Origin: Chitinophagaceae bacterium
GTDB lineage: Bacteria > Bacteroidota > Bacteroidia > Chitinophagales > Chitinophagaceae
Reading direction: 5' to 3'
NCBI GenBank assembly: GCA_028288595.1
Contig: JAQBNK010000188.1
Location: forward strand, 1-64,000
Length of the DNA: 64,000 bases
In this document: positions 20,639-24,283 of the stretch, one piece after another
Layout: every line of letters starts with the position of its first letter
Position numbering within the stretch: position 1 is the first letter of the stretch
Notes under the pieces: generated by a model
Seen by the model: only the letters and a program-made list of their open reading frames with translations
Database searches by the model: none
What the model was told of the DNA's origin: nothing
Position numbers and translations under genes: made by a program

Positions 20639-21358
20639 CTATCGATTAATAATTTTCCCTTTCAATAACTTCTCTACAACATCTTCTTTTAAATTCCTGC
20701 TCACAGGAATGCGATGAGCGCCGGCAATTATTTCATTCCCCTCAATGCTGGTTATTTTATTGATTGAAACCATATAAGATTTATGAACCTTTATAAACAG
20801 ATCAGAGGGGAGGCGTTCTTCTATATTTTTAAAAGTGAGATAAGCAATGTGTTTTTTTTCTGTAGTATGAATGCAGACATAGTTTTGCAACGCTTCAATA
20901 AATAGGATATCCTTGAAAAATATCTTTACAAACTTTCCGTCTGTTTTAATAAAAACATGATCATTGGCTACCTGTTGTAATTCTTTTTGATTCATATCAG
21001 ACCCCATCCTTTCTTTCGCCTTCATCACTGCTTTGAAGAAACGATCAAAAGAAATAGGTTTTACTAAATAATCCAGCACATCGAGTTCATAACTATCAAC
21101 AGCATATTGAGGATAAGCCGTGGTGAAGATTATTTTTGGAGGATGACTTAAAGTTTTTAAAAAATCAATCCCCGACATCTTTGGCATTTGTATGTCGAGA
21201 AATATAAGATCGGGCTGTTCTTTGGAAATAAAACCACTTGCTTTTAACGGGTTATCAAATTCACCGCAGAAATTCAAAAAATCAACATCAGCTATATATT
21301 CCTTAAGGCCTTTTCTCGCTAAAGGTTCATCATCAATTATAATAGAGTTGATTTTCAT
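20639..21358 (-). CDS. LytTR-family response regulator
   Basis: Two-component response regulator of 239 aa. An N-terminal receiver domain contains IIIDDEP (acidic pocket), the phosphoacceptor Asp55 in LIFLDIQMPKMSG, and a later DYLVKPISFDRF lysine. The C-terminal LytTR DNA-binding domain spans about 135-235, including HVFIKTDGKFVKI, YLTFKNIEERL and FIKVHKSYMVSI. It overlaps the sensor kinase gene by 4 bp (ATGA), so the pair is translationally coupled. Target genes are not known; the divergent neighbour is the dioxygenase fusion. Cytosolic. Confidence 0.94.
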   Translation of the reverse strand: MKINSIIIDDEPLARKGLKEYIADVDFLNFCGEFDNPLKASGFISKEQPDLIFLDIQMPKMSGIDFLKTLSHPPKIIFTTAYPQYAVDSYELDVLDYLVKPISFDRFFKAVMKAKERMGSDMNQKELQQVANDHVFIKTDGKFVKIFFKDILFIEALQNYVCIHTTEKKHIAYLTFKNIEERLPSDLFIKVHKSYMVSINKITSIEGNEIIAGAHRIPVSRNLKEDVVEKLLKGKIINR

Positions 21359-22425
21359 ACACCCGTATTTTCGTCAATTTTCAATTTGAAGTTAACATTA
21401 AACCAACCCTCTGCTTCTGTAATATTAAGTTCGTGCTTCCCGGGATATAACAACTCCAGTCTTCGTTTAACATTACGGAGACCTATACCTCCAAATGTAT
21501 CTTTGTCCAGGTTGTGATAATCAACTGTATTTGAAACACTAAAAATGAATTCGCCATTTAATTGTGCGGCATTAATCAGAATTTCATTTTTCCAGCCCTT
21601 GTAATTATTTGAAAGATGTTTGAATGAATTTTCGACAAATGGAATTAGCAGCAGTGGCTCAATGGAAAACGTTCCCATATTTTCTGCACTATTGAACCGC
21701 ACACTATAATTATCATCTTTTCTTAACTTCTGTAAATCAACATAATCCTGCAGGTACTTTAATTCTTTTTCGATTGCAATTTTTCCATCCCCGCATTCAT
21801 ACAGCTGGTAACGCAACATTTCAGAAAATTGATGTAATGCGTCCCTTGCTTCTTTATTCGATTTATCAATCAAAAAATAAACTGCATTTAATGAGTTGAA
21901 TAAAAAGTGCGGGTTCACCTGGGATTTTAAAAAGTTAAGTTCTGCGGCAAGCCGCTCTTTTGATATTTCTGCCATCCGCTGCTCTCCTCTTACATAATCT
22001 GAAACCAGTTTTATAGCAACGCCCGTGCTCACTAATAAAAAATGCGGAATAATATTATCGTACAATCTCAACTTAAAGTTAGAAAGGATAGAAAACGTTT
22101 GCATGTGCATCAGCGATCCCAGTATTGATATCTTCCATGCAGTTGAAAAAAATATTAAGGCTATATAAACGATAGAAAAGAAGAAGTACTGTTTCCGGTA
22201 TAGTAGTTTTGGTATGAGAATAAGATTGGTAAAGTATACCAGCAATGCGAGGTCCAACACTTTAACAACTGTGATCTTAAATGCCAGGGCATGCGAAGAA
22301 TAATCCTGGAAACGCAGGTAGTACCAGCCGCAAAAAAAAGCCAGCCAGAATAAAAGGTGATGAAGTTTATATTTTTTTATAGCTGCTACCGGTTGCATAC
22401 TCAAAATAAATTTAAGCATTCCCAT
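21355..22425 (-). CDS. LytS-type sensor histidine kinase
   Basis: Membrane sensor kinase, 356 aa, partner of the overlapping LytTR regulator. About four hydrophobic segments cover residues 24-145. The His_kinase domain has the phospho-histidine H173 in LKSQVNPHFLFNSLNA, and the ATPase region shows PLLLIPFVENSFKHL (N-box) and GGIGLRNVKRRLELLYPG. There is no long periplasmic sensor domain, so the signal may be sensed in the membrane. The start may be at the next Met, two residues in. Stimulus unknown. Confidence 0.93.
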   Translation of the reverse strand: MGMLKFILSMQPVAAIKKYKLHHLLFWLAFFCGWYYLRFQDYSSHALAFKITVVKVLDLALLVYFTNLILIPKLLYRKQYFFFSIVYIALIFFSTAWKISILGSLMHMQTFSILSNFKLRLYDNIIPHFLLVSTGVAIKLVSDYVRGEQRMAEISKERLAAELNFLKSQVNPHFLFNSLNAVYFLIDKSNKEARDALHQFSEMLRYQLYECGDGKIAIEKELKYLQDYVDLQKLRKDDNYSVRFNSAENMGTFSIEPLLLIPFVENSFKHLSNNYKGWKNEILINAAQLNGEFIFSVSNTVDYHNLDKDTFGGIGLRNVKRRLELLYPGKHELNITEAEGWFNVNFKLKIDENTGV

Positions 22426-22604: not shown

Positions 22605-23732
22605 ATGAAACATTTAATTTTTGCCGTGCTTATCCAGGTAAGCATCATATTACCATCCTGTTCACAAATCACACGGACAAAAGTGGGCGGGCCATGCGAA
22701 GGCTGCGAAGCCATCTATGAAAGTGCTACCCCTTTTAATAAACTAAGCAATTTATTATGGATGCCAGACTGGAATGAAGCAGGCCCCAGGATCGCAGTTA
22801 GCGGCATAGTTTATAAGTCAGACGGAAAAACTCCGGCCGCTGATGTTGTGCTTTACATCTATCATACAGACCAAACGGGTCATTATACGGCGAAAGGAAA
22901 TGAAAAAGGATGGGGCAAAAGACACGGATATATAAGAGGATGGCTTCGTACAAATGAAAAAGGTGAATACAAATTCTTTACATTAAAACCAGCGCCGTAC
23001 CCGGGAGGAAAGAATCCTGCACACATCCATATAACAGTAAAAGAACCAGGATTAAATGAATATTATATCGATGAATTTTTATTTAGTGATGATGCAATTC
23101 TCTCTAACGATGAAAAGAAAAAACTGGAACAGCGTGGTGGAAATGGTATCATCAGTTTGCAGAAGGCCGGCGCAATGTTTAAGGGTGAACGAAATATTTA
23201 CTTAGGAAAAAAAATACCGGGTTATCCATTTGCTCCTTCAGCGAAAATTTCTTCGGGTTTGAATATTGGCAGCAATTGTCCAGCTTTTGGTCCAATGCAT
23301 GTATCAGGAGCAGACAAAGGCGATCATGCGTGTCCTATGTGTAAATACGGATCCGGGCAAGGCATTATGGTTTGGTGGAACGATGCGGACATAAACGGCA
23401 TGCTAAAATTGGCTAAGAAGCTTGATAAAAGCATTGGGCAGAAGGGCTTAAAAAAGTTAAGGGCCTTTATCGTTTTTATGAACCCTTTACACAGGCCATT
23501 AAATGAAATAAGAAACGAATTAACTGCATGGGCAAATCATATGAGGATATCCGATGCGGCCATTGTATTTGTGCCTTCACCTGATGACGCTGAAACCGCG
23601 GTTAATTACAAAATTAACCCCCTGGCAAAAAACACTGTATTTGTATATAAACAACGAAAAGTGGTTAGCAAGTTCATTAATTACAGGGATAATGATAAAA
23701 ATTACAGTGATTTACTGGGTGAACTCAACTGA
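22605..23732 (+). CDS. Intradiol dioxygenase-like domain fused to thioredoxin-like domain, lipoprotein
   Basis: Fusion of 375 aa; I chose ATG 22605 because it starts the signal peptide, which ends in the lipobox-like ILPSC. Residues about 60-210 are an intradiol ring-cleavage dioxygenase domain. The four non-heme iron ligands of the family are all present: Tyr94 (GHY), Tyr132 (PYPGG), His140 and His142 (AHIHI). The second half (about 220-375) is a thioredoxin-fold domain with CPMC at 243-246 and a VFVYKQRKVVSKFINY C-terminal strand. Extracytoplasmic aromatic oxidation or redox chemistry is plausible, but the fused arrangement is unusual and the substrate unknown. Confidence 0.8.
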   Translation: MKHLIFAVLIQVSIILPSCSQITRTKVGGPCEGCEAIYESATPFNKLSNLLWMPDWNEAGPRIAVSGIVYKSDGKTPAADVVLYIYHTDQTGHYTAKGNEKGWGKRHGYIRGWLRTNEKGEYKFFTLKPAPYPGGKNPAHIHITVKEPGLNEYYIDEFLFSDDAILSNDEKKKLEQRGGNGIISLQKAGAMFKGERNIYLGKKIPGYPFAPSAKISSGLNIGSNCPAFGPMHVSGADKGDHACPMCKYGSGQGIMVWWNDADINGMLKLAKKLDKSIGQKGLKKLRAFIVFMNPLHRPLNEIRNELTAWANHMRISDAAIVFVPSPDDAETAVNYKINPLAKNTVFVYKQRKVVSKFINYRDNDKNYSDLLGELN

Positions 23733-23839
23733 AAATCGTAAGAAAGTTTGCACATTTTTATCGTAGCTATTGCAAAAAGGCCAGTTGAAGACTATTTTGT
23801 TATGGTTTGCCATATTATTCATTTAAAACTTATGCTTTT

Positions 23840-24283
23840 ATGAGTACAAAAAAATTCCTCACCGGCGCACTTGTCGGCGGTATTGTTTTCTTCTTTTTAG
23901 GCTACCTCTTTTATGGTGTTATGCTGCAGGATTTCATGAAGCAAAACGCTGGTACTGCAACCAATGTTGACCGCGATATGAGTGGTTTTGTTTGGTGGGC
24001 ACTCGCCGCCGGTAACCTTGCAATGGGATGTCTCCTTTCTTACGTGATCAATAAATCAAATGCAGCTTCTATGCAAGGCGGCCTGAAAAGAGGATTTATT
24101 GTATTCCTCTTAACGGGACTTTCTTTTGATCTGATGTTGTATGCTACAACTAATATTGCCACACTGAAGGGTTTGTCAGTAGATGTTGCAACAATGGCGG
24201 TAATAGGTGCTATTGCAGGCGCTGTTACGGGCTGGGTATGCGCAATGGTTGGTAAGACTGCAACAGATGTAGCTACTGCGTAA
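23840..24283 (+). CDS. Four-helix membrane protein, unknown
   Basis: Integral membrane protein of 147 aa with about four hydrophobic segments (roughly 5-25, 46-66, 78-99 and 110-132). The ATG at 23840 starts directly on MSTKKFLTGALVGGIVFFF and is preferred over an upstream start at 23807. The sequence is rich in Gly and Ala in the helices (GAIAGAVTGWVCAMVG), as in small transport-like proteins. I recognise no specific family with confidence. A bidirectional terminator follows 27 bp later. Confidence 0.65.
   Translation: MSTKKFLTGALVGGIVFFFLGYLFYGVMLQDFMKQNAGTATNVDRDMSGFVWWALAAGNLAMGCLLSYVINKSNAASMQGGLKRGFIVFLLTGLSFDLMLYATTNIATLKGLSVDVATMAVIGAIAGAVTGWVCAMVGKTATDVATA

Follow-up and report, generated by a model that had tools for sequence, protein, structure and literature searches.

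Conserved fusion of an intradiol dioxygenase domain with a thioredoxin-fold domain in Bacteroidota

A gene of a Chitinophagaceae bacterium joins an intradiol dioxygenase domain to a thioredoxin-fold domain, and this pairing is real and conserved in Bacteroidota. The gene is located within a stretch of 64,000 nucleotides (contig JAQBNK010000188.1, here referred to as the window), at the position given by the original prediction. Based on sequence and predicted structure, we infer an exported, probably lipid-anchored enzyme of the Fe(III) intradiol family, which would act on a catecholic compound with the aid of the thioredoxin-fold domain. We assign this reading a probability of roughly 0.4. 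The features of the gene and its neighbourhood are the following:

22605..23732, + strand: whole gene, 375 aa from ATG (full-length relatives with 51-54% identity)
22605..22661, + strand: putative signal peptide with lipobox-like LPSC (aa 16-19) and Cys19 (sequence; predicted helix 2-18)
22695..22706, + strand: CEGC motif (Cys31, Cys34), N-terminal to the dioxygenase domain (Cys in 32/42 relatives)
22722..23225, + strand: intradiol dioxygenase domain, aa 40-207 (PF00775; Z 15.4 to 4ilt)
22884..22886, + strand: Tyr94, iron ligand by homology (42/42 relatives)
22998..23000, + strand: Tyr132, iron ligand by homology (42/42 relatives)
23013..23015, + strand: Asn137, aligned to Arg457 of protocatechuate dioxygenase (pairwise alignment)
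23022..23030, + strand: HIH with His140 and His142, iron ligands by homology (42/42 relatives)
23073..23075, + strand: Glu157, aligned to Gln477 of protocatechuate dioxygenase (pairwise alignment)
23253..23729, + strand: C-terminal thioredoxin/peroxiredoxin-fold domain, aa 217-375 (model and structure comparison; no Pfam or NCBIfam match)
23331..23351, + strand: CPMCKYG, aa 243-249, with Cys243 and Cys246 (CPxC and YG invariant in 26/26 fused relatives)
21355..22425, - strand: LytS-type histidine kinase (PF06580), divergent, upstream, linked in relatives
20639..21358, - strand: LytTR response regulator, divergent, upstream, linked in relatives
23807..24283, + strand: small membrane protein, encoded immediately downstream of the gene (DUF1761 profile match under threshold)

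The ORF may start at TTG 22566 or at ATG 22605 and stops at 23732. Residue conservation was counted in an alignment of 42 relatives, for the C-terminal domain in the 26 fused rows therein. The lipobox that had been recognised at the start of the protein was recovered as a lipobox-like motif ending at Cys19, a column with Cys in 29 of the 42 relatives and gaps in four rows. This start supports the proposed extracytoplasmic location, and judged from the sequence the protein is probably lipid-anchored or membrane-anchored. A CEGC or CDGC motif precedes the dioxygenase domain in 32 of the 42 relatives. For the complete protein, AlphaFold gave a model with a pLDDT of 92 and a pTM of 0.65; due to the latter value the mutual packing of the two domains is not given by the model. 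Relatives such as WP_264694486.1 are currently annotated just as 'intradiol ring-cleavage dioxygenase'. An artefact or chance fusion was ruled out by the presence of 29 fused proteins in many lineages, one of them from a RefSeq plasmid record.

A Pfam search, which the original prediction had proposed as a check, placed PF00775 on aa 53-167 of the first domain (39.6 bits, cut-off 27.3) and left the second domain unmatched. The ORF is the sole PF00775 match in its own genome (4.1 Mb). Matches to the NCBIfam intradiol equivalogs were all sub-threshold, and no equivalog cut-off was reached. In the predicted model the first domain adopts a beta-sandwich fold (Z 15.4, rmsd 2.7, 142 residues to 4ilt_D), and Foldseek with the whole-protein model returned the secreted dioxygenase SACTE_2871 as best match. 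The iron ligands Tyr94, Tyr132, His140 and His142 had been correctly named and placed in the first half of the protein. Additionally, His107, Arg111 and Trp113 are invariant among the aligned relatives.

The best PDB sequence match is the beta chain of protocatechuate 3,4-dioxygenase, a cytoplasmic pathway enzyme that shares the fold and the four iron ligands. However, this enzyme has Arg457 and Gln477, which we take to be the catalytic active-site pair of the characterised protocatechuate and catechol dioxygenases, where the window has Asn137 and Glu157. Position 137 is occupied by Ile, Glu, Asn, Asp, Ala, Met, Thr or Gln in the 42 relatives and never by Arg; at position 157 Glu was found in 31, Asp in 8, Leu in 2 and Ala in 1. 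With protocatechuate dioxygenase as the reference, the Arg/Gln pair is replaced in the window and in 42 of 42 relatives, and according to the alignment the active site of the first domain is different from that of the characterised enzymes. Ring cleavage by this domain is plausible, but may not occur, since both residues are replaced in every relative.

Upstream of the gene the LytS-type kinase and the LytTR regulator are divergently orientated. A LytTR gene was found near the intradiol gene in the window and in 24 of 53 related loci, which do not represent 24 independent events because many linked loci share ancestry. Mostly a LytS-type kinase was present as well, and fused and single forms were linked alike. 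The own genome contains 14 LytTR genes in total, from which we put the probability of a chance neighbour at a few percent for each locus. Another arrangement, with a LytTR protein without receiver domain on the same strand, was present in the loci L006, L011, L020 and L048. Profile matches for PcaB and for muconate cycloisomerase all remained under the curated cut-offs in the own genome, an argument against growth on catechol by the classical route.

Loss of the Arg/Gln pair in all 42 relatives with retention of the iron ligands would also be expected if the first domain no longer cleaved rings. It might then bind iron or an iron-catecholate complex and serve the adjacent LytS kinase as a sensor or as an accessory of uptake; the second domain would be a module for protein contacts. 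The invariant His107, Arg111 and Trp113 and the kinase/regulator linkage fit this explanation. However, invariant ligands would also be expected of a catalyst whose active site has changed, and plain regulation accounts for the kinase linkage as well. We regard such a role as rather unlikely.

The thioredoxin-like character predicted for the second half was borne out by the predicted model and by structure comparison, though by no sequence profile. Modelled alone (aa 217-375; AlphaFold pLDDT 94.5, pTM 0.89), this part has a thioredoxin/peroxiredoxin fold. The best Foldseek E value was 1.9e-7, the closest folds included ResA, DsbE, Bcp and Tpx, and the model aligned to 8t4c_B with Z 15.6 (rmsd 2.4, 137 residues) and to FetE, DsbE and Bcp with a VIA Z of ~15.5. 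In Pfam and NCBIfam no family, and in Pfam no redoxin match, was found for aa 217-375, and a PDB sequence search with the domain gave no significant relative. No sequence homology to the redoxins of the own genome was detected (hhalign probability <1%), and the domain was absent from the 30 own-genome PF08534 matches.

As had been noticed from the sequence, Cys243 and Cys246 of the CPMC motif lie within this domain. None of CPxC, Tyr248, Gly249, His232 and Asp237 varies among the 26 fused rows. In the predicted model, CPMC (aa 243-246) stands ahead of the first core strand (aa 252-258), and at aa 259-265, the canonical CxxC/peroxidatic Cys site at the beginning of the helix that follows the core strand, no Cys was found; TlpA-like proteins of the own genome carry CxxC at this place. 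Judged from this order of elements, the CPxC is probably separate from the usual active-site position, and the domain would therefore be thioredoxin-like in fold only. In the sequence alignment nearly all relatives carry Asn-Thr at 343-344, the putative place of the cis-Pro that precedes the later strand in such folds. The overall fold is that of the ResA/TlpA and peroxiredoxin fold proteins, but the cysteines are off the canonical place and no sequence relation is detectable. A standard thioredoxin active site is not supported.

A CPxC before the core strand and the missing canonical Cys would also suit a structural disulfide or a site for zinc or another metal, in a domain that serves as a scaffold or binding module without redox role. 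Accessory domains on a secreted dioxygenase are already known (4ilt). However, CPxCxYG together with the invariant His and Asp resembles a functional site, and standalone exported copies of the domain exist. We regard this interpretation, too, as rather unlikely. It is very improbable that the domain works as an ordinary, active thiol-disulfide reductase or thiol peroxidase despite its nearest folds (ResA, DsbE, Bcp, Tpx), given the vacant CxxC/peroxidatic Cys position and the lack of any redoxin profile match. The original prediction had further proposed a redox partner that may reduce the iron or a substrate. Since intradiol enzymes remain Fe(III) throughout the catalytic cycle and need no external reductant, iron reduction by the second domain is unlikely; it may instead have a redox action on a substrate or quinone.

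In a sample of 395 Bacteroidota genomes the second domain was present in 14, fused in 14 of 14 and never alone. The whole-protein profile at E 1e-15 or better matched 57 of these genomes, 14 with the fused form and ~40 with the first domain only; the lowest few of the 57 matches are weak and may be other intradiol proteins. The second domain is therefore dispensable in general. Relatives without it had been named as evidence that would refute the original prediction; this was borne out in half, as many close relatives do lack the second domain. Single-domain proteins of Spirosoma, Larkinella, Dyadobacter and Mucilaginibacter have the same first domain (up to 66% identity), an exported start and frequent LytS/LytTR linkage as in the window, but lack the second domain. 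A search without positive control found no separate copy of it in four genomes with such single-domain relatives.

The two domains as separate genes, which the original prediction suggested looking for, were not found in the sampled Bacteroidota, but the second domain does stand alone outside this phylum. In the phylum to which the genome of locus L052 belongs, 1 of 199 genomes carried a close copy that stands alone (L132, 202 aa). This copy (L132:1426-1998) is an exported CPMCKYG protein; the same genome contains, on a different contig, a PF00775 domain within an open frame of 733 aa (L148). Three of the 199 genomes carry distant standalone copies with CQVCKYG, among these L133:1441-2037 and L135:1441-2040, and the wider family is apparently unnamed.

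The second-domain tree joins the standalone L132 with the second domains of the window gene, L002, L059 and L075 (98/96), with long branches between them. In the first-domain tree the window gene falls among single-domain proteins, and 10-11 architecture changes are needed, a count slightly inflated by the apparently frameshifted L051. A single clade of fused first domains was rejected (AU p 2.8e-50) in a quick tree with many weak forks. Either repeated fusion or fusion followed by repeated loss would fit the trees. No second-domain remnant was found past the stop in Foetidibacter (L004). Two relatives, L051:6004-6636 and L053:5932-6450, appear to be frameshifted or cut.

The proposal that intradiol enzymes usually consist of one domain holds in broad terms, but a fusion with a secreted dioxygenase was already known. 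SACTE_2871 of Streptomyces sp. SirexAA-E (PDB 4ilt, 4ilv) consists of a secreted dioxygenase and a carbohydrate/lignin-binding domain, as cited in PMC9167512. The protein of the window resembles it in the combination of a secreted intradiol fold, for which it is the best structural match, with an accessory domain. In contrast to this binding module, the accessory domain of the window is thioredoxin-fold and without Pfam match, and it belongs to another phylum. The portion of PMC9167512 used here also describes secreted intradiol dioxygenases of spider mites, which act on plant phenolics with a role in detoxification; these are animal enzymes acquired from fungi, and that portion reports no thioredoxin-fold domain. 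In the collection of papers searched, none on an intradiol-thioredoxin-fold fusion was found.

For the preferred reading, an exported catechol-directed enzyme, the four iron ligands in 42/42 relatives, the fold match to SACTE_2871 and the lipobox-like start were counted. The fold of the second domain, its invariant CPxCxYG with His232 and Asp237 and the fusion in 14/14 count for it as well, as do the LytTR gene near the window gene and in 24/53 loci and the lack of an over-threshold PcaB or muconate cycloisomerase. Against it stand the replaced Arg457/Gln477, the first domain alone in ~40 genomes and the whole-model pTM of 0.65. In the periplasm or on the cell surface, the first domain would act on a catecholic compound, and may thereby detoxify it or remove a signal rather than feed growth by the beta-ketoadipate pathway. 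The second domain with its relocated CPxC most likely assists it, by a means other than reducing the iron. The CPxC could be a site for thiol redox chemistry or for a metal, at which the oxidised catechol (o-quinone) is handled, or the domain could shape substrate access. Expression would probably be set by the adjacent LytS/LytTR-type regulators.

A wider claim appears to us only a tentative one and rather less likely: the second domain would represent an undescribed thioredoxin-fold family with a moved CPxC site, which together with the altered intradiol domain makes up an exported module for catechol processing, controlled by LytS/LytTR. The analysis points to a conserved, probably exported domain without a family name. 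An intradiol branch with altered active site is present in many Bacteroidota, and its linkage to regulators suggests a direct route for seeking the inducing compound.
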